DNA from: Halichondria panicea | Lineage: Eukaryota > Porifera > Demospongiae > Suberitida > Halichondriidae | Reading direction: 5' to 3' | Assembly (NCBI RefSeq): GCF_963675165.1 | Contig: NC_087389.1 | Coordinates: 26,001-90,000, forward strand | Length of the DNA: 64,000 nt | Shown: positions 6,731 through 56,677 of the stretch, in pieces | Layout of the letters: the number at the start of each line of letters is the position of its first letter | How positions within the stretch are numbered: the stretch's first letter is position 1 | The notes under the pieces: generated by a model | Databases searched by the model: none | Told to the model about the DNA's origin: nothing | Seen by the model: the letters and a program-made list of their open reading frames with translations, nothing else | Position numbers and translations under genes: made by a program

Positions 6731-8947
6731 CTAATCCCCCACATCATCGTCTTTGTCTCCAACCAGCCACATGAGCCAAAAACCAAGAGTCAGTAATCCA
6801 GTTCCTAGTAGGTCCCCTAGAGCAGTCAGGAAGGGTATGGCAATATTGTCAGGATCATAACCCCAGCTCCATATCTTGTGCACTCCCCAGTCAGCAATGA
6901 GCAGCAGCAGCACTACCTAAGAGAGAGAGTGTGGTAGGGGACTAGCCACATACACACACACATACCCGTATGAGAGCACTACCTAAGAGAGAGGGTGTGG
7001 TAGGGGACTAGCCACACACACACATACCTGTATGAGAGCACTACCTAAGAAAGAGGGTGTGGTAGGGGACTAGCCACACACACACATACCCGTATGAGAG
7101 CACTACCTAAGAGAGAGGGTGTGGTAGGGGACTAGCCACACACACACATACCTGTATGAGAGCACAGACCATGTAGCCCACTACAAAGAGATAAGACTGC
7201 GTTGTGTGCCCAGCTCCTACTAGTTGGATGACTGATAAGAACACAATAGATCCAGGTATCACCAGGCTTATGAGTATGCGTGCAGTGCGAGCGTGAATAT
7301 CTAATAAAGGGAAGAATAAAACAACTGAATATGCTGTATCAAGAGTAGATATGAGTTACTCTAAGTTGGCAGTATAGACTGAATAGGGCGTGTGTGGGCA
7401 GCTGAATAGGCAACTGAATATAAGGAGTAGTGGAAACACTCACTCTGCTTAGAGAAGAATGAGCTACAAGGTCCTTTGTATTGGAGGTCAGAGGTCAGAG
7501 GTTGACCAGGAGAGTGAGCAGTTTGATGTAGTGATGTTGATATGCGACTAGCTTGCACAGCCGCTAGGTTACCGCCCACACCTGTGTGTGTGTGTGTGTG
7601 TGGGAGGGTACAGCGAGTGTGTGTGTGTGTGGAGGGGGGTACCATTGATGATGGGAGAATACACTGCAATGCCCTTCCATTTATTGACTGCAAAGGACAG
7701 GACCCATCCACCAGAACTGCACATGCACACAGGAGTCACACTCACACACTGTTATGAGTGTACATACCTACTAATTAACATGGCCACAATCACAGGAACC
7801 CAGCCAATGAAAAGAACAGCTCTGGTTGAAGTGTTCCGATAAGCAAATGCCATCCACAATGGTATCAGGACTATTAGCCCCACCAATATACAACTAGAAG
7901 CAGTTATGACGGAACCTGTATTATAATATAAAGTCAATTCTATCTCATACAAAACATGATTACCTTGTTCCAATGTGACATTGATAGATGAGCTCAATGC
8001 AGAGTCTGTAGTAGCTGCAGAGATAGTATGGTCTCCCAAGTCATACAGTCCCCTGGCTAGTAATGAGAGCAGGCCGAGAGTGACCAGATCTCCAAGAGCT
8101 GCTGCTATTGGAGTGGCTACATTGTCTGGGTTGATACTCAGACTGTGTGATAGTATAATAACCAGTATCATGATGGAGCCTAATATGACACTAGCCACTG
8201 AGGCAGCACCCATTGCAGAGGCTCCTAACATCAACTGATGGGCTACTTCCAAGTCTCTTCCCAACACTAGAGAGAACACTGTAGCCAGTCCTGCCACTAC
8301 CAGAGCTTGTGCCTAGAGGGGGGGGAGGGTCAGGTGTATTGTGTTCACTAGGGAAGCTGTTATCATACCTGAATGAGAGCGAGATTGCCCCAACCTAGTT
8401 TGAAGCGATTTGCCCAAGAGTCCAGTTGACCTAAGTTAGCCTATTAGAGGGAATATTTGATTGCTAGTGTGTGGTGTGTGGGTGGTGTGTGGTGTGTGGG
8501 TGATGTGTGTAGGAGTCAACGTACAGCAGTGGATAGTCTTGAGGCTAACGTCATTTCAAGGTTTCCTTTGAGACCCAGCAAAGCAGGCACTAAAATAAAG
8601 ATCTCATTCACCTCTTGATACACAGTCCAGTGCTGCACAAGAGTTCACAGTAAAATAGTGTTTATAGATATGGAGTGTTGTCCTACCTGGACAGCATCTA
8701 GTAGGAGACCAGCAGCCATCATACCAAACCCAGCGATGACAAATGGAATACCCACTTGTAGTAGTACAGTACAGAGTTTCTCAGGCTTTGTCCCTGGGTT
8801 AGTGTGTTCCTCAGGTCCTAGCTCAGAGATGCCGCTGTCCTCTCCCTCGCTCATAATAGTCACTCTCTCCACTTCTTCTTCACTCAACACACTATCTGAT
8901 GACTCCTCCGTCATAGTGCGTCTCCTTACTCGCAGTTTCTTAGACAT
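6731..8947 (-). CDS. SLC41 (MgtE-like) magnesium transporter
   Basis: Plasma-membrane Mg2+ carrier of solute carrier family 41, with two MgtE-type integral-membrane repeats. Residues 1 to about 60 are a polar, acidic cytosolic tail ([20 protein letters not shown]), followed by the first helix [20 protein letters not shown]. Repeat 1 has [20 protein letters not shown] and later [21 protein letters not shown]. Repeat 2 has [16 protein letters not shown] with [18 protein letters not shown] and then [20 protein letters not shown]. These paired PDN..P...ALGDL motifs are the family signature. At least eight exons can be read. Start ATG at 8945-8947; stop at 6731. The last intron is a 62-bp tandem repeat carrying splice sites (see separate entry). 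Human paralogue (A1, A2 or A3) not resolvable. Confidence 0.92.
6917..7151 (-). repeat. 62-bp tandem repeat forming the last SLC41 intron, each unit with both splice sites
   Basis: Period is exactly 62 bases. On the coding strand every unit holds an acceptor (ctctctctcttag), a 17-base exon-like piece GTAGTGCTCTCATACRG, and a donor (gtatgtgtg). The exon-like pieces are at 7090-7106, 7028-7044 and 6966-6982. The true exons end CTCATACAG (at 7152) and begin GTAGTGCTG (at 6916), so the 17-base piece is a fusion of the two exon edges. The conserved protein requires all copies to be skipped. Confidence 0.85.
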
Positions 8948-9420: not shown

Positions 9421-11582
9421 TGAGTTTCGTTAAGCCAGATGCTGCCAAGTTGCAGACTCTGAAGGATATTGCCGAGAAGATGCGTATCCACTCTGTCAAC
9501 ATGACTCAAGCCTCGGGCTCTGGGTAAGCATAGTGTCCTCCAACCCAACACATGCCCACTAGATACTGTACACACACACACACACACAGACACCCGACAT
9601 CAAGTGCCTCTGCTGCTGAGATCATGTCCTGTCTCTTCTTCGATGAGATGAGATATTCAAGTAAGGGAAGTGGTGGCCCTTGCTAGCATATTGCTTCCTG
9701 TGCATTCCTCGGGTGTTGTGTGAATGCTCTGTTCCCTTTGTGTGCAGTTGAAGCCCCCAAGCACTATGCTGCTGACCGGTTCATCCTCTCTAAGGTATCC
9801 CACTCATTTGTCTATACTCACTCCACTGATTGCTTGCTTTGTAGGGACATGCTTGCCCCATACTGTATGCTGCTTGGTGTGAGGCTGGACTGCTCTCCAA
9901 GGAACACCTGCTCACTCTGCGTAAGGTGGACTCCATTCTTGAGGGTCATCCCACTCCTGTAAGCACACCATCATGCTATGTAGCCCTCACACAATATCTC
10001 TATAATACATGCAGCGTCAGAACTACATCGATGTAGCCACTGGGTCGCTTGGTCAAGGTGTGAGCGTGGCTGCTGGAATGGCCTATTGTGGCAAGTACTT
10101 GGACAAGGCTAGGTAAGATCTGCTCTTATACTAGTAACAGGATTACCCTCTGCTGTTTGTAGCTATCGCACATACTGTGTGACAGGAGACGGGGAAACAG
10201 CTGAGGGAAGTATTTGGGAGGCAGCAGCTTTTGCTAGCTACTACAAGTTGGACAACCTTGTTCTGATTGTGGATGTGAATCGTCTTGGTCAGTCTCAGCC
10301 TGCTTCTCTAGAGCATGATGTGGAGACCTACAGGAAGAGGTTTGATGCATTTGGATGGAATGCAATCATTGTGGATGGTCATGATGTGGAGAAAGTGTTA
10401 GAGGCCTTCCACAATGCCAAGCTCTGTAAGGACAAACCCACCTGCCTTGTGGCCAAGACCTACAAGGGTAAGCTACCTCTGTGTGTGTGTATCAGGTGTT
10501 ACTGTGTACACAGGGCGTGGATTCCCTAATGTTGAGGACCTAGAGAACTGGCATGGTAAAGCACTCGGAGACCAAGCTGCTACTGCTATTGCTGCTTGTG
10601 AGGGACGTATTGTTAACAAGGGACCTCACGGAGTCAGCCCCAAACCAATTGCTGATGATGCTCCTAAGTTTGACATCCCTACCATCAAATTGAGTACTCC
10701 TCCCAACTACAAGCTAGGAGACAAGGTACAGAGCATGCCCTGCATGTGTGCTATACTTATACTGACACTGTGTGTATAGGTGGCCACACGTAAGGTGTAT
10801 GGTGATGCTCTAGTCAAGCTAGGGCAAAGCTTTGAGAGAGTGATTGCTTTGGATGGAGACACGAAGAACTCAACCTTCTCCCTCACTTACAAGAAAGCAT
10901 TCAATGATCGCTATGTCGAGTGTTTCATTGCAGAACAGAATATTTGTGGAGTTGGTATTGGACTGGCGTGCAGGGATCGCAACGTTGTCTTCTGCTCAAC
11001 CTTTGCTGCCTTCTTTACCCGTGCCTTTGATCAGATCCGAATGGGAGCCATTTCTCAGACACAGGTCAACTTTGTTGGCTCACATGCTGGTTGTTCTATT
11101 GGTAAGTAGCGTCACTATAATATTGTGTGCATGTACCTTTCCAATAATGTGTTTAGGTTGTGATGACAATCCACCAATTTTAATATTTAACGAAAGCAAA
11201 GGCCATGTATTGTTATTTTCTAGAATTCAGCTATTTTAGTAGCCATCTCTTTGAGGGATCGTCAATTATTATGTTCGGAATATAATTTCAATAGCTCTCA
11301 CAACATGTGTACTTTGACCCCTGGGCAGGTGAGGATGGACCTTCTCAGATGGCACTGGAGGACTTTGCAATGTTCCGCACTATTCCTGGTGCTGCGTGCT
11401 TCTATCCATCAGATGCTGTCTCTTGTGAGAGAGCTATTGAACTAGCTGCCAACTACAAGGGTCTGACCTTCACACGAACATCACGACCTGCCACTCCAGT
11501 GATCTACAGCAATGAGGAAGTCTTTGAGATTGGGAAAGGAAAGGTTTGTTAATGCTCCTTTCCCCCTCTACATTGCCTGATT

Positions 11583-11615
<33 letters not shown>

Positions 11616-12261
11616 GTTGTACGTCAGTCTCCCATGGACAAGGTGACAGTAGTGGGGGCTGGAGTTACACTGGAGGAAGCTATGAAAGCTGCTGATACAC
11701 TCAAGGCTGAGGGTGTGAACATCCGTGTGGTGGACCCATTCACTCTCAAGCCTATTGACAAGGAGCTCCTCACCTCATGTGCTAAAGCCACTGGAGGGAA
11801 AGTGGTGGTGGTGGAGGACCACTATGCTCAAGGTAGGAGTGTGTGTATGGTAGGGCCACTCCCTCCCTTGACTAGCTAACTATGTGTGTGTATGGTAAGC
11901 CCACTCTCTCCCTCTCATAGTGTGTGTATGGTAGGCCCACTCTCTCCCTCTCATAGTGTGTGTATGGTAGGCCCACTCTCTCCCTCTCATAGTGTGTGTA
12001 TGGTAGGTCCACTCCCTCCCTCTCATAGTGAGTGTGTGTATGGTAGGTCCACTCCCTCCCTTGACTAGCTAACTATGTGTGTGTGTTTGTCCAGGTGGTC
12101 TTGGAGAGGCTGTGGCTGGTGCTCTGAGCGAGGAGAGTGGAGTAGTGGTCAAGCGTCTCTTTGTGACTGGCATCCCTCGCAGTGGACCAGGGGCCAAGCT
12201 CATGGAAATCTATGGGATCTCGGCCAGCCACATTGTAACAGCTGTCAAGAGCCTCATTTAA
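9421..12261 (+). CDS. TKT: Transketolase
   Basis: Thiamine-diphosphate enzyme of the non-oxidative pentose phosphate pathway, moving two-carbon units between ketose and aldose phosphates in the cytosol. About eleven exons encode roughly 620 aa of animal type. The N-terminal TPP domain has AASGSGHPTS-like [20 protein letters not shown], then ATGSLGQG and [18 protein letters not shown] with VDVNRLGQS, the GDG...N cofactor motif. The pyrimidine-binding domain has [57 protein letters not shown] and TRTSRP. The C-terminal domain has [30 protein letters not shown] and [16 protein letters not shown]. The start [16 protein letters not shown] aligns with the animal N terminus. The last intron (11831-12094) is a tandem repeat; another intron has a short (GT)n. 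Confidence 0.97.
11831..12090 (+). repeat. Tandem repeat filling the last transketolase intron
   Basis: Five to six units of about 35 to 50 bases reading gtgtgtatggtaggcccact plus ctctccctctcatag. The intron starts with the real donor gtaggagtg, and each unit contains a look-alike donor (ggtaggc) and a pyrimidine-rich acceptor look-alike (ctctcatag). The exon tail itself (TATGCTCAAG) is not copied, unlike the SLC41, POLD1 and ITFG2 arrays. Confidence 0.85.
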
Positions 12262-13736: not shown

Positions 13737-13780
<44 letters not shown>

Positions 13781-15070: not shown

Positions 15071-15744
15071 ACAGTTATACATAGGGAGCAGAGCATAAGA
15101 CATATACTGTACTCAATGGAGCTACTTATCTTTCCTGTACAGGGGGACGTCAACCTACACACAATAGAATGCATGAAAGACACTGTACATGTAGCCAGCC
15201 ATACTTGTCTTGAATGTCTCCATGGCTGCTCACAAGACAATCCATGCACCTACACACATACTCAAGAGACACTAATTATATAATCACACAATGATAGTAG
15301 TGGGCGGTGAGATCTGAGCCCCGCCCCCTTCAGTACCTGCAATACATTATACAGTGATCAGGTTAGTAATCCTCCCTGGGTCCCAGAGCAGCATGGCTTG
15401 TCTGTACCTGGGGGAGAGAGGAGACAAAAGCAGTGAGAGAATGGAACACTAGTACAGTAGCTAGTAGGAGGAGCTGTGTGTGTGTGCATTGTGGCTGCAA
15501 GAGGACAAGCAAATGATGGTTACATTGAGCGCAGCAGTTCAAACAAAACCGATCATCAACAAATCTCCACAACCTTAGAAAACAAAATAATACCAACCAA
15601 TTACCACCAGAACTGACAACATCACCACCATTGAGAACATTATCACCAGTAGTTTCCTTGCTCAAGGGACAGATTCAACAAAGGGCATAATAAACTAAAG
15701 GGACCCTGTGACTGTGAGTACCATTAACTGAGCACAGAAGTAAT

Positions 15745-17499: not shown

Positions 17500-17950
17500 C
17501 CTCTGTAAAAAAATTAATGCATCCATTGCTACACATTAATTTTGTTGACTCGTTACTTCATTGCATACAGTGATGGAGAACACGAGAGAGGCAAAGTCAG
17601 TGACCCGTTGCTATAACAACAGATGCCGAAGGAGTTACAAAGTGACACTGAGGAATATAAGGACGACCCATTGGACGTATTGCACTACTGCAGATGAAGA
17701 AAACAATCCTATAAATGTGTGTACCACTGCGTGCTGGCCCCTATAAATGTGTGTACCACCGCATGCTGGCCCTTTATCTTGCTATATAGAATGAATGATC
17801 TTAGTTATAGTTTTTAGTGACCTCCCGAATGTCAATTGTTCGTTTTAACACACCATTTGAAAGGCCTCTCTCTAACCTTTCAGAAAATCTTAATGTTATT
17901 GAACCATCGCAACTAAAGTTATGGCTGTTCAAAAGATATGTTCTGGTTGC
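17500..17950 (+). repeat. Repeat family B copy followed by half of a family A copy
   Basis: 17500-17700 resembles 12770-12905, including cattgctacacatt, cgttacttcattgc, a tacagtgatggagaacacga segment and cccattggacg. From 17830 to 17945 the sequence reads acaccatttgaaaggcctct, ctttcagaaaatcttaatg and gttatggctgttcaaaag, which is one arm of foldback family A. Confidence 0.65.
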
Positions 17951-18247
17951 CAGGCAACTAGATTCATCAGCCCCCTAAAAAGTAGTTTGGGGTGTGGCCT
18001 AAATTAATGAGCCACACCCATTATATATCAGGAAATGGTCTATACTTAATGATTACACCTACCCAAAGCCACCTGAAAAGTCTTCATGGCTATAGCAATT
18101 TTGTCAAAACAGGCCCAAAAATAGACTTTGATTTTAATACATAATTATACTGACTGATTACAGCTCGTCTTTCAAAGATTGATTCATATCGATGTTTAGA
18201 AACGCATGTGTATTAAGTTACAGAATGTGTAATTAGAATGTGATAGT

Positions 18248-18969
18248 TCATTCAGCAATGTCCAGTTGTAGTGCCTTGTACAGGAACATGATTTGTTTGG
18301 CAGCCTGCATTAATATCATTAATAAGTGATAAGTAAACTACATTGCTCACGTTGGTAGCTCTCTCCTTAGCGTCTCCGTTGTCATGGTGACCATGTACTG
18401 AGTCCACCTTGAACACAACATTGGCCCCACATTCTCTCAGTCTCCTGACATAAGCAACCACTCCACTGAAGGGGATCACTTCATCATTCCTGGAGGCCCT
18501 CACGTACACAGCAGGGTAGTCCTGTGTGTGGGAGGTGGTGTGTGGGGGGGGGACTCTTTCAGCTGTCATAACTTAAATTTCGTGGATCCAATTTCAACGA
18601 TTTTCTGATTTTCTGAAAGCTTATAAAGAGACCTTTCAAATTGTGTCATCAAAGTTCGTATTAGAACGATAAAAGTATTTACCAATTTGGCGATACCATG
18701 GATAATATATAGCCCATGGTCTAAAGCCTAAAAATGACAAATTATGGCCCCAACCAAATTTTGGATTGAAACACATCATTTGAAAGGTATATTTCTAAGC
18801 TTTCAGAAAATCATAACATTTTTGACATTGGACCAACGGTACTCTAGTTATGGCTGTTGAAAGATGTTCATGGGAGGGGGGGGGGGAGACTGGAGTGTGT
18901 GCTTACTTGAGGCCGTAGTGTAGAGTAGGGACAAATAGAAGCAATATGCTCTCTCTCAGATCTTGTACC

Positions 18970-19019
<50 letters not shown>

Positions 19020-23182: not shown

Positions 23183-26100
23183 TTATTCAGTTACTGTTAG
23201 AGATGTCTTGATGATGAAGGAGTGGTGTTGACAGGAGCTATTACGAGGAGCTAGCCAAGCAGGATAATAACGCAGCTCATATAATCCAGCATCTCCAGGG
23301 ACCTGCATGGTTGCGGTGATTATAATTAGTTGGATACCACACTACAGTAATGACTCACTCTGAGTTGTTGTGTTCCATCGGTCATGCCTTGTTCATTAAT
23401 CACCTCCGAGAGACGGTAACTACCAAACTTTGTGAACACACCTACACAACACATAGTGTATATAATTAGCTAATGGAGGCATAGAACATTACAGATTCTG
23501 TCATTCTTTGATGCTCTAGAAAGTGACCAAGTGATAGTAGTGGTTCCATTTACTGGTAGAGTGTGTGGGTGGACAGAGAGGCGTGAGGAGGTGTAGGCAT
23601 CACGAGGCAATCTGTAGTAGCTAATGGAGTGAGAGGACACCGTGTTGAGAGCCACCTGCATAATTATAGGGGATAGAGTACCCCCACACACACACACACC
23701 CACGCACACACACCCACACACACACACACCCACGCACACACATACATACCTTGAGAGAGTATGGGACTCCTAACTCTAGATCAACCATTGCATACACTCT
23801 AACAGAACTGCCATAATTCTCTCTCCTCAACAGCTCTTGTTCTCCTCTATGGTACCTCTGCAACAATGACAGTGCTAGTAGCTACACGCATCACATGAGG
23901 TGCTGGGGGTACCTTAGCATAATAGGCAGCAGACATTAGAGCAGCAGGACTTAACAAGATCTCTTCAGTCTCAATACCGTAGGGACATGCTCGGAACATC
24001 AACACACCTTCATCATTCTGAAGGGTACTATTAATAAACATGAGGTGCATGCATATTATTGACTCACATAGAAGAGAGCAGCTTCAGTCCTCCTTAAAGA
24101 ATGAACATCATCTGCTGTCATGTACAAGACCAACTCTTCACTCCAATCAATCTCGCGCTGTTCCCTGGTTACCAACTGTAGAGGGGGGTTCCCCTACAAG
24201 CAGAGCAATATCATGGGTAATAACGCCCACACCACAGCCTCACTTGCTCCACTCTTATAGAGGCAGACCCACTATCACACACACACACCACCCTCAAGTG
24301 TAGTGGTTGGGGTAGAGAGAAGTGAGCTCTCTGTCTGTCCTCGCCATTCACAGCCAGATCCCCTGAACACACACACATTCACTAGCACACACACATACAC
24401 ACACACACGTACCTGCAACTGCAATGGCTGCTCGCAATGAAAGTACGAGATCTGATCTTTGCACAACAGGAAAGCAACATTTTTCAATAAACTCTCGACT
24501 TCCGTTCACTGCTATCCAATTACTATCACATCTGTTCCATTGACCACCTACACATGTACACAAAAGCGGACTCTGAAGTTAGCTGTCAAAACATACTACA
24601 TAATAGATATGCTGGCCCTTCAAAGTTAGCTCCACAGCTTTTGTTGAGAGGCCAGCTATGTTATCAGTATGGGACACTATTCCATAAACTGCTCTCACCT
24701 TTGCTCTTGTACTCAGTGTACATGTCTCTGACAAGGATGTCTGTTGGACTGCTATTGCTGACCATGAATGTTGTAGTGAACAGGTTGTTCCACTTCCCTG
24801 CATGCACACATACAACTTATACACAGTGAAGTACGTACATATATCAACCACCCACCATTGGCCATTCTGAGCAGACTGGAGTTGACTGTTACACACTCCA
24901 TTTGAGTGAGAGAGATAGGAAACTCCCTGCATGTGTACATGTGGCAGTACAATGTACTAAGTATACTACACACAACCAGCACTGTTATAATGATGGTGTA
25001 CTCTCACGGGTCATTCTTGTGTGTGGTGTAGTTGTTCCTCCTGCCCAGAGAATGGTCTACTCCTGGCTCAAGTACAGGCCCTCTCATCATGTCCTCTGAC
25101 ACTGGATAATCAACCTACAGTCATGCATCATTACAATATCCAGTGATAAATCATAATTATTTGAACGGCCATAACTTGAGTTCTGTTGGTCCAATAAACG
25201 TTAATTTATGAGAAAGGCCTTTCATATGATGTGCTAAAATCAAAAGTTTTATATTTTCAACAAAATATACCATGGGGCCATGCATAATTTATAGTCCATA
25301 ATAAATAGCACATGGTCCTTTCCTGAAAAAAGGAAATTATGGACCGTTCCAAATTTTTTTACATTTGAACATACAATCAGAAAGAACTCTTTTTAAGCCT
25401 TCAGAAAATCATTAAATTTGGACCATCAAAACTCTAGTTACAGAGCCAATGTTAACTCTAGTGCTATCAAAATGAGTGCATGCAATAATTATCATGAGTA
25501 TAACGTGTGTAGAGAGAGAGCACCTTAGCTACTGGGGGAGTGGGGTCAGATAGCGTCTCTATAGAGCCAGGTTTGAACTTCTCTCCAGAGAGAACCAGTT
25601 GCAGTCTCTTGACTAGAGCGCTCTTGTAACCAGCTGCTTTGAGAGACACAGTGATGGCTGTATACACGTGGAGGAGGTAGGTAATCACATTAATATAGTA
25701 ACTATATAAGGAGACTCACATTTGGCCACTGTTTTGGCTGACTGTAGACTGACACTTAGAGCCCATCCATTGTCACTACATTTCCTGATTATGTCACTGT
25801 TCTGAGACTAAAAAATCCAAAAGACACATTTTTCTCACTCTCAAAGTTCCAGGAACAAAACTAAAGATTGACATCAAATAATTACCTTACATTCTTGTAG
25901 TTGACAAAAAGAGAATTCTTTGTAGACGAGAGGCTGCTCTCTTGAATAGCCCACAATCACATACACCACTCCCTGGGCTGAGAGCCCGACCTGAGGCATA
26001 ATATACATGCAGCTATAGCTAGTATGCAGTGTCAGTAATATTACCTGCCCCCATTCACAGGCCTGGCTGACTGGGTCCAGAATATCCACTGACAACCAAA

Positions 26101-26949
26101 TCTCCTGAGCATCCAGTAACTGCACAGAGACGAATAATGCCGTTTGCCCAGAATGTTTGAAGTGCATGGTGGCTTATTTTCCACAAATTTTCCTTTTTTA
26201 TTGGGCCTAAGAGGTATTACCAACCACCACCATGCACCAACCAATGTGCGTGGACACATCATTGAACATGCACGATACTATTAAACTCACCAGTGTGTTC
26301 ATGTATAGGTAGTAGCCGACATAGGTGTAGTTAGTGTGCTGCTTGGGAGTATGCCATCCCTGCCTGCAGCCTGGCACTCTCCACACAAGACCTCTGCTCT
26401 TGACTGGAACCTCACAGCAGGTCAACACATACTTGTTCTCCCGCACAAACTTCAGCTCTCCATAATGGTAGATACAACTGCACGCTATAAATGCACATAA
26501 TAATTGTCATCAATTTCAACAGTACCTTTCTCTTACGTGAGTTCTCCTGAGCTCTAAACCTCTCACAGCACTGAACACAAACGGCATTAAACAAAGAAAT
26601 CTTCTTTTTCCGAGCTGGAAAGGACCTCACTCGAGGTTTTGGAATAAGCTCATAGTCAGGAGAGTCTTCTGGTAGCATCTGTAGAAGAGCATGCAGTGCA
26701 TGCTAACAGTCTATAAGAATAGCTCACCATGTCTTCATAACTGAGAGTTCTCCTGGAGCTGCTGCGATGCCAGGGGGAGAAGCTGCTGCTGCTCTCCAGG
26801 GATATCACTCTGTTCTCCAATGACTGCATCACAAACAAAGTATGCAACTAACATTACATGCAGTAACCTCACAATCAGTCTTCTTTCAATCCTGCTCATC
26901 AAACTAGTCATGAGGATCTCAAGATGTCTGGTCTGCTGTTGCTGCTCCA
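23183..26949 (-). CDS. Unrecognised multi-exon protein, coiled-coil N terminus and SKICH-like C terminus
   Basis: I do not recognise this gene. About 19 exons with consistent phases give roughly 750 aa. Start chosen at ATG 26947-26949. Residues 1-45 look coiled-coil (HLEILMTSLMSRIERRLISL). Next is a Cys-rich part, FNAVCVQCCERFRAQENS and VLTCCEVPVKSRGLVWRVPG with CRQGWHTPKQHTNYTYVGYY, then likely beta-rich segments (GVVYVIVGYSREQPLVYKEF; SITVSLKAAGYKSALVKRLQ; WNNLFTTTFMVSNSSPTDIL; CCFPVVQRSDLVLSLRAAIA; DRQRAHFSLPQPLHLR). The C-terminal 90 residues have TTTITWSLSRASKNDRICVF and later VPGDAGLYELRYYPAWLAP, a pattern like the Ig-fold of SKICH-type domains (W...D.IG.F ... G.YE.RY). No membrane span or signal peptide. 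Clean splice sites and uninterrupted frame over 19 exons say it is a real, selected gene. Divergent from the SOSS-B gene. Confidence 0.7.
25150..25445. repeat. Foldback family A copy in an intron of the unrecognised gene
   Basis: Left arm acggccataacttgagttct with ccaataaacg, centre tatttataccatggggccatg-like and tccataataaatagcacatg, right arm cagaaaatcattaaatttgg to accatcaaaactctagttac. More diverged than the arrays near 37 and 62 kb, so older. Confidence 0.7.
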
Positions 26950-27125
26950 TTTTGCAGCTCTTCTGTGAGAATCCAGACCCATGCACTAAACTTGTATTTT
27001 CACTGGGTTTTGGTGTCCTCGAATCCAAGCCGCTTTGAACAAGCGACTTTGATTCGAGGAAATGATTGCGTGGTTAATTCCAATAATAGCCGCGGCCACT
27101 TCGTCATAGGGTGTTATATTTTTCC
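26950..27125. promoter_or_regulatory. Shared promoter region with a 44-bp hairpin
   Basis: Lies between the divergent starts of the unrecognised gene (26949) and the SOSS-B gene (27126). It contains an imperfect palindrome at 27016-27060: tcctcgaatc and gattcgagga are exact 10-base arms, with cgctt / aagcg pairing inside. Its position upstream of both genes makes a regulatory role possible, but it could also be a small insertion. Confidence 0.5.
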
Positions 27126-27860
27126 ATGATGGCTGAGGGCCTCAAAACAACTTCTATCTTAGACTTGCGTCCTGGTGTCAAAAATGTGACATGTTCTTTC
27201 ATCGTGATTGACAAGGGTTAGTAGTGACAAGGGATAGTAATGGAGGGGTGGTGGGATTGGGCCCATCTAATTATCAGTATTTCTCTCTTGTAGGTACGAC
27301 CAGTCAGACCAAGGATGGGAGTGTAGTGAGAAAGTGTAGAGTGGCCGATGCATCTGGATCCATTCTGTTCTCCCTCTGGAACGAGCAAGCTGCCGCCATT
27401 GAAGAAGGGGACATACTGAGACTTATCAAAGGGTACACATCTTACTAGTACATGTATGTGTGTGTGATAGTGTGTGTGTATATACATATACAGATATGCC
27501 TCGCAGTGGAAAGGCTCTATGGTGCTCTACAGTGGCAAATATGGGATATTGGAAAAGATAGGAGAGTAAGAAATGGCTCCTGTACTGAGTGTGTGTGTGA
27601 GCTATATTCTCTGCAGGTTTACAATGGTTTACAGTGAGGAGCCAGACATGAGTAACAGCAGTCTTGACTTTGGGCAGGCCCTCCCTGGACAAAGAGTCAG
27701 AGCTGATGATCGATTGCCCCTCCCAAACAGGAATGGCAGTAACAGCACACAACGATCAGAGCCCTTCTACTCAGACACACACTCTCCCCACAGAACACAC
27801 AATCACAAGGAACAATATACTTCCTCACATCATCACAGACCCTCCACTAGCTACAGCTAG
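27126..27860 (+). CDS. NABP2: SOSS complex subunit B, single-stranded DNA-binding OB-fold protein
   Basis: Orthologue of human SSB1/SSB2 (NABP2/NABP1), the ssDNA-binding subunit of the SOSS complex that works with INTS3 in double-strand break repair. Four exons. The OB fold reads TTSILDLRPGVKNVTCSFIV, then IDKGTTSQTKDGSVVRKCRV, ADASGSILFSLWNEQAA, GDILRLIKGYASQWKGSMVL and YSGKYGILEKIGEFTMVYSE with EPDMS. This matches the order and length of family members. The C-terminal tail is Ser-, His- and Pro-rich and probably disordered, ending HHHRPSTSYS. Two adjacent ATGs (27126 and 27129) could start it. The human pair NABP1/NABP2 arose within vertebrates, so the symbol stands for the ancestral gene. 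Confidence 0.92.
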
Positions 27861-28060
27861 TAGGGTCTATAATTATTATAATTTTATGGTTGTCTCAATT
27901 CACTTTTTCTTTGACCACTCAACAAATTTAAAAACACCACATACATACATACACTATGCCTAGCTTGTGTGCAGTACAATAGACCTGCGCTGACAACAGG
28001 TGATTACACAAATCAGGATAACACAAAGACAACCTTGCAGAGAGAGCATGCATGCAATTA

Positions 28061-28982
<922 letters not shown>

Positions 28983-39647: not shown

Positions 39648-40450
39648 CTACCAGTCGCTGGTCCCAAACCGCTCCACCAACTTATCTTGATCACTCAAGT
39701 CTTTCTGCACCTTCTTACGCATGTAGAATATCGGACAATCCCGACTATAATCGTGTGTGTGTGAATAGAATACGATAGGAATGATCACGCACACACACAC
39801 ACCACACATATCACACACATATCACACATCACACACACCTTGTACACAGCACATCTTCGTGGAGACTTCCTTGACAACGTTGACACTGGGTCCAGAGACG
39901 AGAGAATCGCTCCTCCAGGGTTGCTAGGTAACCTACCTCTGTCTGGTAGATCTCAGACTCCTTGTTCTGACAGTTAGGGCACACAGCAGAGTCTGTGTGG
40001 GGGCGGAGATAAAGAGTGTGTGGGGTGGGATAGAGTGGGGGTGGGGGTGGGATAGAGTGTGTGGGGGCGGGGATAAAGAGTGTGTGGGGGTGGGATAGAG
40101 TGTGTGGGGGCGGGGATAAAGTGTGTGTGGGGGTGGGGATAAAGTGTGTGTGGGGGCGGGGATCTACTACCTTGGTTCTGGAGCACAGCTCTGCAGCCGA
40201 GGCAAGTGTTCTTCTTAGTAATGAACTTGGCCATCAGACCAGAGCCCCCGGAGGATGACACCATTGTCTTGCAGCGAGTGTGGCTACCGTCTGTGGTGTG
40301 TGTGTGTGGATGTATAATTATATGTACATTAAAAAAAAATGTGGGCTGGAAATCAATAGCTGAGCACAATCAAGCAGCTAACAGGCCTGATTTAGAAGCT
40401 TTTGATTCAGTGTGTCTAGGAAACTAGCATTGCATTGCAGAATGCGCACG

Positions 40451-40495: not shown

Positions 40496-43400
40496 ACGCA
40501 GCAGCTCACTCTTGGCTTTACTGTCACCGAGGATGGGCTCGAATATTCTAAGTAGAGGCTTTGCTAGTTGGTTCTCCAGATAATAAGATGTGTCTATGGG
40601 AACGTTGTGCTCTAGTACATGTATAGGGTCCTCTGACTTCATGTATGCAGCGGCACCCTTAGTGCTGGCGATGATGACATACGGTACTCTGTCCCCGAGG
40701 TTAGGGGCCGAGCCTGGATCACGCTTACGCATCCTGTGTGTGGGTGGATACACAAACACACACTTGCATGTACGAGGAGGGGTTGGCCATTACTAAGAAA
40801 CAGCTCTAAGAATTGAAATGTTAACTGCTAACAATTATGTACATTGTAAGCAAGCCATACAATGATGGACTGACCGACCTCTGTGCTAGCTCCACACAAT
40901 GATGGACTGACCCACCTCTGTGCTAGCTCCACACAATGATGGACTGACCCACCTCTGTGCTAGCTAGCTCCACACAATGATGGACTGACCCACCTTGTGC
41001 TAGCTCCACACAATGATGGACTGACCCACCTCTGTGCTAGCTCCACACAATGATGGACTGACCCACCTCTGTGCTAGCTCCACACAATGATGGGCTGACC
41101 CACCTCTGTGCTAGCTCCACACAATGATGGACTGACCCACCTCTGTGCTAGTTCCACGTGTGCCAGTCTGTTCCCAGCCCCTGAAGTGTACTCTTTGCTA
41201 GTTTTTGTGAGCTCTTTGGTGATGACCAGCTGAGAGATGTCTATCCTGTTACGCAACAGATCTGCTATGGTCTGTTGGGCATATGCCAGGGCACCTTGTG
41301 GGGACCTGTGTGTGGGGTGAGTGGGCGGGGTGTGACATATGTGAGGGATGAGTGTGATGTACCTGTCAATGAGTATCTTATGTAGACAAGTGTTGATGAC
41401 GTTAGCTACAAGGGGACAGTTGTCACGGCGAACCTACGAGGAGACGGGGGTCATGACACAACATAATAATAATGTACCGTATAATTTTGTGAGGCAAAAA
41501 TTCGTTATTTTCAATGCAGATAAATATTAAAATCACCGCTGTTCAAGTTCAACGAATTTTACCCCATGAAAATTACCAGCTATAGTGAGTGATTGTGACT
41601 AACAGTTTCTATTCCCTTGCAGTCCATCTTGTCGTAGGTATCAGGGTTAGTGAAGAAGAGACCAGCATACCTCTTCTTGTTGATGAGGAGATAAGGGAAG
41701 TACACCTGAACACAGGAGAGGGCAGTCTAGTGTATAATTAATTATACTAGCACTGTTACGCTGTTTGTCTGATGAGTATGCCCTTTCTGAATCTCTATTG
41801 TACAATAGTAACATGGACGTTGTACCTTCTCAAACTCTAGCTTGATGGGATGAGGGAACTGAGCTGATATGTAGCTAGCTGCTTCCTTGCCGAGACGCAT
41901 GCTCTCTCCCACTGTGTCCACTCCAAACCTCACCATGACAGAGTCAGTGTCTCCATAGATCACCTTGGTGTCGTGAGCGTAACCATTGGCAACACAGTAC
42001 TTGTCCTCCACCAGTTGACTGGAACATTCGATCATCTGACGTCCGAATGATGTCACGCTCTGTGGGGGGTATTAATGAAGCAAGACCCCCCAGGACATGA
42101 CCTCACCTGGGATATCTCTATACAAGGCAGCCTCCCCACGGTGGCCCCTGTAAACCCATACACTGAGTTAGCACTGAGCTTGAGGGCCAACTGGCGCCCA
42201 TCCAGCACCTGCATCATGTGAGGCAAGGACAGTATGTCATAGCAGGGATAACAAGTTAATAGCTAAAATACACAAATGCACTATCGATCAGTACACACTT
42301 TTCTCCTGAAGGGGTCAGTCTCACTCTTGAGCTCAGCCTTGGCCCTGCAAACACACACAGTGAGAGTATATCCACACACACACACACTGAGAGGTGGACT
42401 CACTTCTTTCTAGCAGAGAGCAGTCCCTCGAGAATGACTGGCAGGAGGCCTTTAGTTACACTTGCCTTCACAAAGTAGTTACCAGAGGGAGTCTTGATGA
42501 ACTGGTCTGGAGCAAGTCTGTAGGAAACGTACATAAAGTGCTTCTCAAGCTGAGCAGATGAATACCGTATAGCGGGTATATTTCGAGGATAAATATTCGC
42601 GGTTTTCGCTGATTAATAATATTATACCGCAAACATTTATACCCACGAATTTAATATAGCATGCTGCTATTCCGCCAAAATTAATTCGCAAAAACGGTTT
42701 TTAACGGTCTTTCCGCTAACATTAATTTTATACCCTCGAAATACCCATGCACTATAGGGCAGTGAGTGAGTGTGCTTACTGAGCTCTGTCTGCTGGGCTG
42801 AGGAGCAGCGTGGTGTAGCACAGGTTGTGAGCCTGCATGATGGACGGGTACAGGGACGAAAAGTCCAGCGTTGCTATGGGAACATCGTAGTAACTGGAGG
42901 AACAAGATAACAATATTAGCAGTGTATTCTCAGGCTCTATGACGGTGGCCCCAGTGTATTCTATATAGCTCACCCCTTCTCAGGCTCTATGACGGTGGCC
43001 CCAGTGTATTCTATATAGTTCACCCCTTCTCAGGCTCTATGACGGTGGCCCCAGTGTATTCTATATAGCTCACCCCTTCTCAGGCTCTATGACAGTGGCC
43101 CCAGTGTACTCTTCTCCTTGCTCTGGCTTGTGTACTGGCATCAACAAGTCATGCTCTCTAGCCTGTGGGTGTGGTCCATACCTGTTCCCATGGTAACAAA
43201 ACCACACCCACCTCTCGGAGAAGCTGTGATACGACTTTGATTTGTTGTCCCCTGGAGAGGAGGTAGCTGAGAGGCACCCCAGTCACACGCGCCATCTCCA
43301 TGTAGTTGATGAGGCACATGAGCTTATCCAATAACCTCAGAGGAAGAATAGCATCTTTCATACAGTACACTGCCAGCCTCCGCCGTGTCTGCTCATTGCC

Positions 43401-45898
43401 ACACTGCAGAGAATGGCTAGCGTACATATACAAATACATAGCTCTGAAATGAAACCACGTACGGTACATACGATGATCATTCACAACAAGTAGGGGTACG
43501 GCAGTTGAATACATAGACAGCTACAGCTACTGCATAAGATAGCTAGCTGTACTGATGCTGACACTGGTACCTGGAGATCAGCTATGATGGTGTGAGGAAC
43601 ATCTTCCTTTTGCTCCTGGAGGAAGTGGTAGCTGACAGAGTTGAGAGTGTAGGATCGCAGCTTTGTGTCCCGCATGAGAATCTGTGTGTATGTGTGTGCT
43701 CGTTACTATGACGCTAACTTTACATAAAGAGCTATTCTGCAACCTTGCATCTAAGCACACCATTGGAAAGGTCATCCTGAGAGCTACAAATACATCAATT
43801 CGTTTTGAAATTGGACAATCTGAACACAAGTTACACATAGCTACCAAATCAGCTGAATTTCTGAAAAAAGCGCAAGGCTATTGACCTAGCGCTAGCATCT
43901 TTGAATGGACATAACTTTAGTTCCAGGAATACGCTCAGATGGTGTATTGAACTGACCTGCAGCATATCGAACTGTATCCGTCCTTCTATGGCAATGACCT
44001 TATTGACCCTCTTCCCGTAAGCCTTGGATTCAAATGTGGAGTCCTTCATCGTAGTTACACTGTTCCATACTCGCCCAAGGTAGGGGAACAATGAAACCTG
44101 TGTGTGTGGGGGGGTACACTGGCGGGGGGGCTATGAGTGTGTGGGGTACACTGGCGGGGGGCTATGTGTGTGGGGGGTACACTGGCAGGGGGCTATGTGT
44201 GTGGGGGGTACACTGGCGGGGGGGCTATGAGTGTGTGGGGGGTACACTGGCGGGGGGGCTATGTGTGGGGAGGCTAACTTACTTTAAGAGCCTTGGCTCT
44301 GTTGAGAAGGTAGGGGAGGTCAAAATTCACAATATTGTAGCCAGTGATTACATCAGGATCCACTTCCTGTACAAAGTTACTCCACTCCTGTGTGTGTGGG
44401 CGTGTGTGTGTGTGGGCGTGTGTGTGGGCAATAAGATAGTGTGCAGCACACATACCTTGAGCATCCTTCCTTCGTGCTTTTTGTCAAAGGATATGACATC
44501 ACTACCCACGATGGAGGCACAGCTATCCAGAGTGAACACATTCCTGATGAAGGGGTCTTTCTCCCCCTGACTGACCACCATGTTGGCTATCTGGATCACA
44601 GGATCTCTCTCTGCCTCAGGAAATATCCCCTTCCGTCCCTGGCACTCAATATCAAAGCTCAGAATGCGCAGAGGAGCTATTTTCTGCCAGTCCCCCTCAG
44701 CAGGATGGCTGGTGAAGGCCTCCCATGAAATATCTAGTTCAATCTGCGCCTTGGTGGCTGGTAGTGGGTGGGTGGAGCCTGTCGCTGTGAAGCCAGTGTT
44801 GGGGCACACAGAGGTGGTATCACTGGAGAGGGGGGAGGGACTCCGCAGCTTGTACTCACCTGAGAGATATGGAGGGATAACATTTGTAATGTAAAGATGT
44901 GCTTAGTGGTACCACATAATGTAAAGATGTGCTTAGTGGTACCACATAATCAATTTAACACACTTGCAGTCGCTAAGTTTCGTTTAATGATAGTAGTCTC
45001 AGAACATACACTCATCATGGGGGGGGGGCACACACACTCACCATGCAGGGGGGCACACACACTCACCAGGGGGGCACTCTATCCAGTTGCATCCCACCAC
45101 ACTCGTGTCTACCATAAACCGTACCTCAAACTCGACATTGCTCTCATATGACTGACCCTCCAGAGACCCATAGGGAGGGACCAGCCTCGTACTCAACACA
45201 CGACGTGTAGCAGCGACCAATCGAGGGAGAGCTACCGTTATCTTGAGGAACGGGAATTTTTTGTTGAAGTAAAATCCATACATTGAGCACTTGTTGTTAC
45301 ATATCTCCACCGCTAGAACAGCTTGCTGCACTCCCTCCTTGTTGGAACGCATGTCGTCTAGCACGGCTCTATTCAGGTTGGCTCTAAATGCTGAACAATG
45401 TTCCTCAAGGAAACCATTCTCCCCCACTGGCACTGGCACGTAGAAGTATGGATGAAAGCCGTGAATGTGTGCGCACACACTATTACCCTCCATAGTCACA
45501 CCGAACATCCTGAGCACTGGTACAGGTCCGGACATGGCTCCGGGCATACCCGCCATGGCACTGCCAACATAGTGGTCTATATCAATCTGCTGGAAGATGA
45601 GAGGATGGGTGGAGGGGTCGATGGTTGGAGGGGGTGGTCTGGCCCACTTGTCCCTCTGCTGTGTGCCCCCCTGGAGGCTGCTTGAGGGGGCAGCAGGGGG
45701 GTGGCTGTCCACTGGTACATGTACTGGTGCAGGTGGGGGGTCCATGGACTCCAGCAAGGCTAGCTCCTCCTCAAAGGTCGAGGGAGGGAAAGAGAAGTCT
45801 TCATTCTTGGATTTCTTTGAAGAAGGACCTTGACTGCTGTCAGGATTGCTGCGTTTAGGCTTTGACATAGTTAGCTTTTCTACAGAGCTAGAGGCCAT
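39648..45898 (-). CDS. POLD1: DNA polymerase delta catalytic subunit
   Basis: B-family replicative polymerase with proofreading exonuclease; makes the lagging strand with PCNA. About 20 exons, over 1000 aa. N-terminal domain: [31 protein letters not shown] and [10 protein letters not shown]. Exonuclease motifs: [18 protein letters not shown] (Exo I), [20 protein letters not shown] (Exo II), [18 protein letters not shown] (Exo III). Polymerase motifs: [20 protein letters not shown] (A), [16 protein letters not shown] (B), [14 protein letters not shown] (C). C-terminal metal-binding CysA (CLGCRAVL...CPNC) and CysB (CQRCQGSL...CTSRDCPIF), the latter an iron-sulfur site in this family. Stop follows RFGTSDW. 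Start could be ATG 45898 ([10 protein letters not shown]) or 45868 (MSKPKRS, with a nuclear-signal-like KPKR). Several introns are minisatellites, two of which copy the splice donor. Confidence 0.97.
40862..41150 (-). repeat. 37-bp tandem repeat at a POLD1 exon-intron junction, copying the splice donor
   Basis: On the coding strand the exon ends GTGGAACTAGCACAGAG and the intron begins gtgggtcagtccatcat. About eight units of about 37 bases follow, each ending GTGGAGCTAGCACAGAG before another gtgggtcag. Every unit therefore repeats the last 17 exon bases and the donor with at most one change. The conserved reading (ELAQR then MRKRDPG) needs the first donor. Confidence 0.88.
41475..41590. mobile_element. 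Short MITE-like inverted repeat in a POLD1 intron
   Basis: Ends taccgtataattttgtgagg with caaaaattcg on the left and cgaattttaccccatgaaaa with ttaccagctata on the right are imperfect reverse complements over about 28 bases, enclosing about 50 bases. It shares the taccgtata start with the element at 42560. No coding content. Confidence 0.55.
42560..42762. mobile_element. MITE-like element, about 200 bp, in a POLD1 intron
   Basis: Left end accgtatagcgggtatattt with cgaggataaa and right end ttttataccctcgaaatacc with catgcactat form an imperfect terminal inverted repeat around GGGTAT.TTCGAGG. The inner part is AT-rich with several cg-containing words (attcgcggttttcgc, ttcgcaaaaacgg). No open frame. 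A target-site duplication is not certain. Confidence 0.6.
42922..43095 (-). repeat. 50-bp tandem repeat copying a POLD1 exon tail and donor
   Basis: Coding strand: the exon ends TACACTGGGGCCACTGTCAT plus AGAGCCTGAGAAGGG and is followed by gtgagctatatag. Then the same 35-base exon tail and donor are repeated twice more, and a third time without its donor, before the acceptor (tgttcctccag). The copies differ from the real exon mainly at GTC to CGTC. Using the second donor would put an in-frame TGA right after GAGAAGGGG. Confidence 0.9.
43720..43930. repeat. Repeat family C copy in a POLD1 intron
   Basis: Homologous to 36130-36270 over taagcacaccattggaaagg, gttttgaaattggacaatct and acatagctaccaaatcagct. 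Ends near tggacataactttagttcca. Confidence 0.65.
44098..44275. repeat. GC-rich minisatellite in a POLD1 intron
   Basis: Five units of about 33 bases built of gtgtggggggtacactggcg and gggggctatgt. Purine- and G-rich on the plus strand, with G-runs that could form quadruplexes. It is intronic and not coding. Similar gtgtgtgggggcggggataa units occupy 40005-40165. Confidence 0.85.
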
Positions 45899-50564: not shown

Positions 50565-51395
50565 TCAAGTCCAGACAGGTTCTAGTGGAATAGTGTCAGC
50601 CTTGCTCTTGGGCCATGGGTTCATACTGTGAATGGGGCATTGTACTGGGTCCTCATCCTCATCATAGCCTGTAGCACAGGATTCACAGAATCCAGCATGC
50701 TCCTTGATCTTCTCTTCAATGTGACATCTGTAGCGATTGCCGTGCCAAATCTCAACATTTTCTTTTCCACAACACATACAAGTCTGCAGAGCAAACAAAA
50801 CACATCATTTACACGGTTGCAATTGACATTTCCTTACCCCTGTTTTCTGTGTTCTGCCCCCAGTCTTATTCTTGGATGCTGTAGGGTTGTCTGCCTGAGG
50901 CCCCCCTCCAGTCTCTAGCCTGTTGTGAGTGAAGCCATCCCAGTGGAATATCTCTTTGTTCTCAAATGGTGAACCAACAGAGCTACAAGCATCCTGTCAG
51001 TAAATACAAGTACACACTGGCTCCAATAATAATCAAAGTAAATATTGTGTGTGTACTATTAGCTATTGGTTTCCAGTGCTGAACCTGTTTCCCCGATATT
51101 GAACGCCTAATCAGAATGTGATTTTCCCACTATTCGTACGAAGTATTCACCTTAAAATTGTTCAGTTCTTGCTCACTGTCATCGCTATGGAGGTTCACAT
51201 CTGGGTCGTACGTCTGGGTAGTGGGTATGTGGTATGGTCATGTATGTACGTGCGTGTAGTGGGTATGTGGTATGGTCATGTACGTACGTGTGTATAGTTG
51301 CGTGAGGCCTATAAATTGTCTGGATAGCGACAAGAAAATGCTTAATTTATACCAGTACATGCAGTAACAGGAATTACCTCATCCTTACACTCCAT
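50565..51395 (-). CDS. Small cysteine-rich, probably zinc-binding protein of unknown function
   Basis: I do not recognise it. Four exons: MECKDE, then TYDPDVNLHSDDSEQELNNF plus K, then DACSSVGSPFENKEIFHWDG with FTHNRLETGGGPQ and a basic linker KNKTGGRTQKTG, then the Cys-rich exon. That exon has CMCCGKENVEIWHGNRYRCH, HAGFCESCATGYDEDEDPV and QCPIH, eight Cys/His residues spaced like two zinc sites. About 155 aa; no signal peptide or membrane span; probably intracellular. The stop region is a 31-base direct duplication (50536-50566 and 50567-50597) containing tcaagtccrgacasgttcta, so the last codons were copied downstream. Splice sites are good, so it looks like a real gene. Confidence 0.6.
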
Positions 51396-51664: not shown

Positions 51665-53727
<2,063 letters not shown>

Positions 53728-53823
53728 CTTGCAGAGGTATATTACAGGGTGGGAGTGTCTTGTTTGTGGGCGTGTCTAACGATCATTACCAGAAACAATG
53801 CATAAAAAATTTTTCACACTGTA

Positions 53824-56677
53824 TCACTCTTGTTTCTGCCTATACAAAATGTCTCTGAACGTTCTTTGTTTTGTTTCGTCTGTAGAGAGAGAGCACACAT
53901 CATTAGTGACACACACACAAGCAGCTAGCTCTCACCGTCCCAGCCCTCCTCTGTGTCCAGTCTAGCTGTGACCAGATTGAAGGATGGAACAGCGGGTAAT
54001 TGAATATTGTGGTAAATGTAGACTCTGTTTGAGAAGGTGGTGTAGACTAGACAAGGCTCGTTGCTAGCCTCCAGTCCATAGCAACCTGCAGGAGGATGGT
54101 TACCGAGCAATGGTACAGTCCTACACGTACCTGCTGCAAAGGCTGTCACATTCTGTTCAAACTTGTAGCGGACAATATTTCTGTTCAAGTCCACAACATA
54201 GGTCATGCCATCCCAGGCACAGGTCACTATCTCATCACATCCACTGCCCTGGCAACACAACAGTGCATAGTAACACACACTGTCGGGAATAGCAATAGTT
54301 ACTTGCAGTGATGTCCAATCGTTGTATAGAGAAGAGGCTATGGTCGACTTGCAGCTCCCATTGCTTAACCCCACCCCTCACCATCCTCACAGTACCTGTA
54401 CAGAGATCACTATACACACACAGAGGTCAGCACACCACCCACCATCTAGAGTACACAGGGCCACAATATCATCAGAGTCCTCAACAGTCTCAACTATGTT
54501 AGCCACTAGAGATGTGGAGGATGTTGGATTACGCCTCTGTGGTTGACCAATCAGATCCCTTGATTCCAGTTCACCCTCTCTGTATTGACCCAATAATAAA
54601 CACATTGTCAATATCGCAGTGCATGACTCACAGGTTAATGGCCAGAGGAAGGTAAGTGCCTCCTGGCTGTGAGACCAACAGTTGAGAGCTCTGACTAGAG
54701 ACAGACAATGAGCCTACCTGGAATGTGATAGTACGTGTGAGTGTGTGTGGGAGCCAGGCCTGAGTGATGTGTGTGTGGTGTGTGTGGGGGGGTACCTGGC
54801 CTGAGTGATGTGTGTGTGGTGTGTGTGTGGGGGTACCTGGCCTGAGTGATGTGTGTGTGGTGTGTGTGGGGGAGCCAGGCCTGAGTGATGTGTGAGTGTG
54901 TGGGGGAGCCAGGCCTGAGTGATGTGTGTGTGTGGTGTGTGTGTGGGAGCCAGGCCTGAGTGATGTGTGTGTGAGTGTGTGGGGGAGCCAGGCCTGAGTG
55001 ATGTGTGTGTGGTGTGTGTGTGTGGGGGTACCTGGCCTGAGTGATGTGTGTGTGGTGTGTGTGTGGGGGGGTACCTGGCCTGAGTGATGTGTGTGTGGTG
55101 TGTGTGTGTGGGGGTACCTGGCCTGAGTGATGTGTGTGTGGTGTGTGTGGGGGAGCCAGGCCTGAGTGATGTGTGTGTGGTGTGTGTGTGTGGGGGTACC
55201 TGGCCTGAGTGATGTGTGTGGTGTGTGTGGTGTGTGTGGGGGTACCTGGCCTGAGTGATGTGTGTGGTGTGTGTGGGGGGGGTACCTGGCCTGAGTGATG
55301 TGGGTGAGTGTGTGTGGGGGAGCCAGGCCTGAGTGATGTGTGTGTGGTGTGTGGGGGGGGGTACCTGGCCTGAGTGATGTGTGTGTGGTGTGTGTGGGGG
55401 GGGTACCTGGCCTGAGTGATGTGGGTGAGTGTGTGTGGGGGGGGTACCTGGCCTGAGTGATGTGTGTGTGGTGTGTGTGGGGAGGTACCTGGCCTGAGAG
55501 AGAGGCTGTATGCAGGAGGCACAGTGCTTTAGAGCCTTGACTCCACCGGTAGACTGACACACAACGATCAGTATGACCCAACAACAGATCACAGTCACCC
55601 TCACTACCTGTGCCATGCATTACACACAGTCCACTGCTACTACACATGAGCTCACTGAGAGGGGCAACACAGAGTGTCTTGACATTGGGTGTGGAGAGTG
55701 ATTGTGAATGGAGTGCCCTCATAGACTTGTGCCCTCCTCGCCTCTGTTGCTCTGGACTAGATGATACACCGGCCTTTGATAAACCCTGCATATAATCAAG
55801 TGAGTGAGTCGAGGGAGTGTGATAATGTACCAGTGTGGAGGGAGTGTGATAATGTACCGGTGTGGAGGGAGTGTGATAATGTACCGGTGTGGAGGGAGTG
55901 TGATAATGTACCAGTGTGGAGGGAGTGTGATAATGTACCGGTGTGGAGGGAGTGTGATAATGTACCAGTGTGGAGGGAGTGTGATAATGTACCGGTGTGG
56001 AGGGAGTGTGATAATGTACCGGTGTGGAGGGAGTGTGATAATGTACCGGTGTGGAGGGAGTGTGATAATGTACCAGTGTGGAGGGAGTGTGATAATGTAC
56101 CGGTGTGGAGGGAGTGTGATAATGTACCGGTGTGGAGGGAGTGTGATAATGTACCGGTGTGGAGGGAGTGTGATAATGTACCGGTGTGGAGGGAGTGTGA
56201 TAATGTACCGGTGTGGAGGGAGTGGTGATATCAAAGAGGCTGCACTCTCCGTCAGAGTTGACACACACAACCACATTCTACAGGGAGAGGTGAACACACA
56301 CACATCAGTAGTGGGCACACTCATACCTTGCCAGTATTCAGGACATCTCCAATCCCCACACACACTATCTGGAGAGAGGTTAGTGAGAGCAATGATAGTG
56401 GTGAGTCTCACCGTGCCTAGTCCAGAGCATTTCTTGAGAGGTGTGGTGGAGGGTCCCTTGAACACAGCCAACACACCATCCACATTGCCTATCACCAGCT
56501 CATTCACCTGCGTACACACAGTGCACACACATAGACACTATATGGCTGTATGGCCTATGTGGCCGGCTGCACACTCACTCCATCAGCATCCACATCTCCA
56601 AGGGCTAGGGCATCTGAAAAATGGTTACCAGAAAAGTCCAGTTCAAGCCTGTCCACAAAGGAAACTGATCTCATCAT
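53824..56677 (-). CDS. ITFG2: ITFG2, FG-GAP beta-propeller subunit of KICSTOR
   Basis: Subunit of the KICSTOR complex, which tethers GATOR1 to lysosomes and restrains mTORC1 when nutrients are low. Exons in order: MMRSVSFVDRLELDFSGNHF with LALGDVDADG; VNELVIGNVDGVLAVFKG; NVVVCVNSDGECSLFDITTP; GHTDRCVSVYRW; VGSLSVSSQSSQLLVSQPGG; VALCTLDG; WELQVDHSLFSIQRLDITGS with GCDEIVTCAWDGMTYVVDLN; CYGLEASNEPCLVYTTFSNR with VYIYHNIQL; NLVTARLDTEEGWDDETKQR ending ILYRQKQE. The DVDxDG, GDxDG and TCAWDG motifs and the overall order match animal ITFG2. Two introns are large tandem arrays (54745-55495 and 55803-56222), and both are open in the reading frame of the flanking exons, so the exact coding content there is uncertain. 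Confidence 0.9.
54745..55495 (-). repeat. Minisatellite in ITFG2 copying the exon tail CTCAGGCCAG and donor
   Basis: Coding strand: the exon ends CTCTCTCTCAGGCCAG then gtacct. About 16 units of 38 to 54 bases follow, each carrying atcactcaggccaggtacc or the variant atcactcaggcctggctcc. In the first kind the last nine exon bases and the donor are exactly copied. Between them lie cacacacacc tracts. Unit length varies, and all three coding-strand frames are open, giving long His/Thr/Pro-rich artificial ORFs. The real downstream exon (VGSLSVSSQ) follows the acceptor acattccag. Confidence 0.88.
55803..56222 (-). repeat. 27-bp tandem repeat in ITFG2 with a donor in each unit, in frame
   Basis: About 15 units, coding strand ACTCCCTCCACACCG followed by gtacattatcac. 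The upstream exon ends with the same CTCCCTCCACACCG before gtacat, so the donor is repeated every 27 bases; variants read CACTG before gtacat. The length is a multiple of three and no stop occurs, so the array would read as TPSTPVHYH repeats if kept. The next exon begins GGTTTATCAAAG after tatatgcag in phase 0. Confidence 0.9.

Follow-up and report, generated by a model that had tools for sequence, protein, structure and literature searches.

Tandem repeats that span splice junctions and copy donor sites in conserved genes of Halichondria panicea

The name mirages was given to tandem repeats that lie across exon-intron boundaries in the Adh3 gene of amphioxus, and such repeats were later described in the globin genes BflGb6 and BflGb9, in troponin C and in PGBD5 of the same animal (PMC3087553, PMC3902484). 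As these reports present them, mirages occur at the 5' or the 3' side, have units of 10–160 bp and carry AG/GT in many of the copies though not in all, and splicing is reported as undisturbed. Two other described systems are close. In intron gain by tandem duplication (PMC4974935) the duplication also crosses an exon-intron boundary and adds splice sites, and in duplicated human genes (PMC2812944) minisatellites of about 30 bp at the boundaries may form novel introns.

The arrays presented here, from the genome of Halichondria panicea, are of the kind already known as mirages. They share with those of amphioxus the boundary-spanning tandem unit, the occurrence on either side, the presence in several genes of one genome and the retention of splice signals in many copies, not all (12 of 19 in one array of ITFG2, a single one in an AAK1-like kinase gene). 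The arrays of amphioxus are described as polymorphic in length, also somatically, whereas those shown here are known from one sequence per locus. With respect to intron gain, where a new intron is born, the copies seem here to lengthen an existing intron; and the human boundary repeats, as described, belong to recent paralogues, often with a transcript that keeps the repeat as well, whereas the genes concerned here are conserved. What is added to the amphioxus cases is another genome (131 Mb), a set of very conserved genes (eEF1A, POLD1, HUWE1), a unit comprising a whole intron in an SLC41-type gene, and a test of placement, of which our literature search found no example for such repeats. In that search junction-spanning mirages were met in the amphioxus papers, and reports from elsewhere may exist. 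A little-known lancelet curiosity is in this way carried to another animal genome.

The window, a stretch of 64,000 nucleotides (bases 26001–90000 of contig C13), was picked for its richness in arrays and was analysed together with a sample of 280 kb from contigs C1–C7 and C13, giving 344 kb of a 131-Mb assembly in 39 contigs. Genes were predicted with a small gene finder trained on the window and the sample (self-trained models, one sequence per locus), and those of the window resemble compact animal genes. A sequence-only reading of the window had described five intronic arrays, in three unrelated genes, whose units copy the exon end and the donor. Tandem Repeats Finder located all five close to where they had been placed, with the same periods (62, 37, 50 and 27 bp) except for the first ITFG2 array, whose period is 41 bp and not about 48:

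6909–7165, minus strand: array in an SLC41-type (MgtE) gene, 62 bp x 4.1
40855–41157, minus strand: first POLD1 array (POLD1a), 37 bp x 8.1, intron 40734–41140
42927–43112, minus strand: second POLD1 array (POLD1b), 50 bp x 3.7, intron 42894–43073
54735–55498, minus strand: first ITFG2 array (ITFG2a), 41 bp x 18.7, intron 54718–55488
55811–56230, minus strand: second ITFG2 array (ITFG2b), 27 bp x 15.5, intronic (donor CCG/GTACAT) or coding repeat (TPVHYHTPS)n

The gene identities also held, through the Pfam families MgtE (SLC41) and Itfg2 together with matches to human DNA polymerase delta and human ITFG2. The unit of POLD1a consists of 17 exon nucleotides and the donor AGAG/GTGGGT, present in all eight copies, one of them as CAAG/GTGGGT and the last as the weaker AGAG/GTCGGT. 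In POLD1b, 39 exon nucleotides precede the donor AGGG/GTGAGC, found in three copies (in one as GTGAAC), and the fourth copy is cut short. With the exon-proximal donors as splice sites, the protein aligns without gaps to human DNA polymerase delta over both joins, one of which reads HVELAQR/MRKRD.

The 62-bp unit of the SLC41 array comprises 17 exon-like nucleotides and a whole 45-nt intron. On the gene strand every one of the four copies carries both the donor (ACAG or ACGG/GTATGT) and the acceptor (CTTAG/GTAG), and the array therefore amounts to four entire introns of 45 nt, with 17 nt between one and the next. The intron was taken from the first donor to the last acceptor (6917–7151), with 14 exon bases inside the array, and the exons join in frame across it. 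A search of solved structures with the SLC41 query gave no match. With four full introns in a row, unit-by-unit or recursive splicing would be possible in principle, leaving mini-exons of 17 nt. Read through in the exon frame, the SLC41, POLD1a and POLD1b arrays contain 4, 3 and 4 stops, respectively, which rules out that they are plain coding exons.

The unit of ITFG2a carries 10 exon nucleotides and the donor CCAG/GTACC, kept in 12 of 19 copies and lacking its GT in the other seven, so the donor is not repeated in every unit as had been proposed. The ITFG2a intron is also open (CA-rich, with few stops) and, with a length of 771, divisible by 3; human ITFG2 aligns ungapped over the join LSGQ/VGSLSV. 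The best reading of these four arrays (SLC41, POLD1a, POLD1b and ITFG2a) is that of intronic tandem repeats that copy 10–39 exon bases (14, 17, 39 and 10) and the donor, the real junction being probably at the exon-proximal donor according to protein homology or reading frame.

The assignment of ITFG2b is evenly balanced between an intron and a coding repeat. The array is open throughout, is a multiple of 3 in length and is in frame with both flanking exons; the unit of 27 is divisible by 3, and the frame (TPVHYHTPS)n runs without indels from the upstream into the downstream exon. The donor occurs in 15 of 15 copies and is weak, ranking near the 11th percentile among 367 predicted donors, which also favours coding, as does a sponge-like protein typed without the array, since its residues 101–160 do not align here to human ITFG2. 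Against this, a fair acceptor (ATATGCAG, 5.7) lies downstream in the correct phase, and a stop-free unit of nine codons is not rare by chance. The 22 exon bases inside this array are thus valid only if it is intronic, and the claim that all five arrays are certainly intronic was dropped.

Two further arrays of the window lie close to a splice site and copy no exon:

44101–44267, minus strand: array in a POLD1 intron, stopping 3 nt short of the predicted acceptor, no exon copied
11838–12061, plus strand: array in an intron of the gene named transketolase by the sequence-only reading, starting 5 nt past the predicted donor, no upstream exon copied

In the sample, the gene predictions led to junction arrays elsewhere in the genome:

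C2 1,015,942–1,016,229: eEF1A, 46 bp x 6.1, 19 exon nt, six equal donors (6 of 6 copies), protein confirmed
C13 97,415–97,856: HUWE1, 44 bp x 10, 29 exon nt, ten identical donors (10 of 10 copies)
C1 1,021,287–1,021,463: AAK1-like kinase, 22 bp x 8.2, 13 exon nt
C1 1,046,127: weaker donor-side candidate in a predicted gene with a doubtful first exon
C4 1,018,561–1,018,926: cytosolic-carboxypeptidase-like gene, acceptor-side array, 90 bp x 4.0, placed by frame

The 10-kb block of C7 added no array. Junction-spanning arrays are thus confirmed at the donor in SLC41, POLD1a, POLD1b, ITFG2a, eEF1A, HUWE1 and the AAK1-like gene, and at the acceptor in the carboxypeptidase gene; the arrays outside the window bear out that independent repeats with different sequence and period are involved. 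In the AAK1-like array a donor score above 2.5 is reached only at the exon's own donor. The human proteins align ungapped at the exon-proximal donor of POLD1a, POLD1b, eEF1A, ITFG2a, HUWE1 and the AAK1-like kinase; homology fits the use of this site, and RNA would accordingly be expected to use the first donor. On the acceptor side, the last acceptor of the carboxypeptidase array (four copies of 90 bp) appears from the frame to be the real one. A longer piece of this gene matched cytosolic carboxypeptidase-like protein 5 in an alignment that ended before the junction, a 68-residue piece gave no match among solved structures, and the join is supported by the frame and by a sequence motif. The sequence-only reading had described copying of donors; both sides of the boundary are affected overall, through the carboxypeptidase array and through SLC41, which copies its acceptor as well. 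Five candidate arrays fall in the 64-kb window vs four donor-side ones in the 280 kb elsewhere, a contrast that weighs against placement by chance, although the window was picked for its richness.

Tandem arrays are often misassembled and their copy numbers may be wrong, and the ten HUWE1 copies are identical to one another. Even so, an origin of the whole set in faulty assembly is hardly credible, with arrays of this kind found on four contigs (C1, C2, C4 and C13) of the assembly and scattered changes between copies in five of the six arrays laid out. The internal donors score equal to the first one in HUWE1 (10), in eEF1A (6) and, except for the last copy, in POLD1a. Such equality might suggest that the arrays are kept for a function, several equal donors allowing regulated or allele-dependent splicing. 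We regard this as very improbable: with units of 37, 41, 44, 46, 50 and 62 nt, splicing at an internal donor would put conserved proteins out of frame, and the amphioxus counterparts are reported to leave splicing intact (PMC3087553, PMC3902484). Conserved genes with as many as ten identical donors in a row offer in any event a ready-made test of how the spliceosome chooses among equal sites.

The placement of the arrays was compared with chance. The first gene models had mis-split genes at the arrays, and therefore every array was reduced (collapsed) to a single copy before the models were retrained and run on the shortened sequence; the array classes were then set against the random placement of segments of equal length in introns and over junctions. 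Of 121 arrays, 16 resisted this reduction and were left out, and of the remaining 105 the intronic or junctional ones numbered 48 (automatic classes) or 50 (curated, with five arrays reclassified by hand). The automatic donor class comprises SLC41, POLD1a, POLD1b, ITFG2b, HUWE1, eEF1A, C1 1,046,127, C1 1,020,165, which merely abuts a donor, and C4 1,010,873, a coding repeat; it misses ITFG2a and the AAK1-like array, as arrays disturb the gene models. The curated class comprises SLC41, POLD1a, POLD1b, ITFG2a, ITFG2b, HUWE1, eEF1A, the AAK1-like array and C1 1,046,127, with ITFG2b and the last one uncertain. On the acceptor side the automatic class holds SLC41, the coding repeat C4 1,010,873 and two doubtful arrays (window 51207–51298 and C4 1,043,311–1,043,603), and in the curated class the carboxypeptidase array takes the place of the coding repeat.

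Donor-spanning arrays were as frequent as expected by chance: 9 vs 8.9 in the automatic set (n=48), 9 vs 9.3 in the curated one (n=50) and 5 vs 5.6 outside the window (n=29). Earlier counts agree, one on the uncollapsed sequence with 7 (SLC41 included) vs 7.0 among 45 arrays and 374 introns, and another with 9 vs 10.0 (n=51). A second test, independent of array boundaries and with low-complexity 20-mers set aside, asked which 20-mers are copied into the intron. This was the case for donor junctions in 4 of 306 introns, for acceptor junctions in 0 of 306 and for interior positions in 210 of 4314, both junction counts being low because the gene models used missed at least SLC41, ITFG2 and carboxypeptidase. 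Taken together, both tests reveal no donor excess, and a preference of arrays for donors was rejected.

These counts bear on the idea of a process aimed at donors. The sequence-only reading had inferred a recurring process in this genome; in the donor-directed form, some feature of the transcribed 5' splice site, such as a GT-rich start, R-loops or a paused polymerase, would provoke tandem duplication. This idea draws on several independent donor cases with fewer acceptor ones (9 vs 4, SLC41 being counted on both sides). We consider it unlikely, as donors do not exceed the null, copies of interior 20-mers are more frequent than those of junction 20-mers and the imbalance is a matter of too few acceptors rather than of excess donors. 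Neither was there an excess of arrays at donors over intron interiors within the 344-kb sample.

Acceptor-spanning arrays, on the other hand, were fewer than expected: 4 vs 8.9 in the automatic set (n=48; P of so few about 0.035), 4 vs 9.4 in the curated one (n=50; P 0.025) and 2 vs 5.6 outside the window (n=29; P 0.056). With the curated classes and an 8-nt overlap the values were 3 vs 7.8 (P 0.029) and, outside the window, 2 vs 4.9 (P 0.10). This shortage is suggestive only and a weak lead, because the acceptor cases include two doubtful ones and the donor-minus-acceptor difference alone reached significance under none of eight settings (P 0.06–0.32). A possible explanation, which we hold only tentatively, is that duplications at the donor persist at the neutral rate and those at the acceptor are removed, transcript order and not donor strength deciding the splicing. 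Donor arrays would persist because the first transcribed donor wins, and acceptor arrays would be removed because a decoy acceptor comes first. If true, junction minisatellites would supply a naturally occurring set of multi-donor genes that demonstrates the order rule in this animal, and the acceptor shortage, if it holds, a measure of selection against decoy acceptors.

The arrays are, with good confidence, ordinary minisatellites seeded by microhomology that happened to hit the junctions of short introns and persist since the first donor works. Introns are short in this genome (median 108–133 nt over the model versions) and the units (median 28 bp in intronic arrays, 22–90 bp at junctions) are a sizeable fraction of them, so that many duplications straddle a splice junction. 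In this scenario short direct repeats would prime tandem duplications at random positions; a duplication that straddled a donor would be tolerated because splicing would go on at the exon-proximal donor and the additional copies would leave with the intron; and the tolerated array would then grow and shrink like other minisatellites. We infer that tolerance, rather than a targeted process, sets the pattern.

The ends of the units are in agreement with such an origin. After filtering of the 105 arrays by unit length, identity and CA/TG content, 55 were left; direct repeats of at least 4 nt were found at the unit ends in 25 of them vs 6.8% of 11,000 random positions, an excess inflated by values such as 17 (POLD1b) and 16 (AAK1-like) that come from partial copies at the array end. 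Direct repeats at the unit ends are what slippage or end-joining duplication leaves. They measure 3 nt in POLD1a, 2 in HUWE1, 5 in eEF1A (AGAGC) and 4 in the carboxypeptidase array (CACT); SLC41 scored 0 and ITFG2a was filtered out. The junction arrays measured were, by eye, no different from the other arrays in this respect. Spliced RNA cannot be the template, since the copies keep exon and intron in genomic order.

Several other repeats and intron features were seen. Many predicted introns of the window and the sample start, by eye, with GTGTGTG and end with CACACAG, and the acceptor matrix alternates every two bases. Tandem repeats with periods from 9 upwards cover about 18% of the C1 block, 16% of the window and 2–7% of the C2–C6 blocks. 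The C1 block contains a 42-bp satellite of about 111 copies (L007 5129–9807, C1 block 25129–29807), and a predicted receptor-like gene carries at its 3' end an in-frame coding repeat of 120 bp x 3, with 40 residues per unit (L021 873–1234, C4 block 10873–11234). In the C3 block (L015–L019 joined) two pairs of arrays, 15292–15427 with 37339–37474 and 17912–17989 with 39998–40077 (block coordinates), have an equal or rotated unit and are placed about 22 kb apart, which suggests a local segmental duplication. The arrays at 10105–10323 and 18261–18479 of the C5 block (L025–L027 joined), equal in unit length and copy number and 8,156 bases apart, are perhaps also a local duplication. Finally, tandem units of 320 bp (37901–38640) and 333 bp (61718–63289) in the window appear by eye to form one dispersed family.
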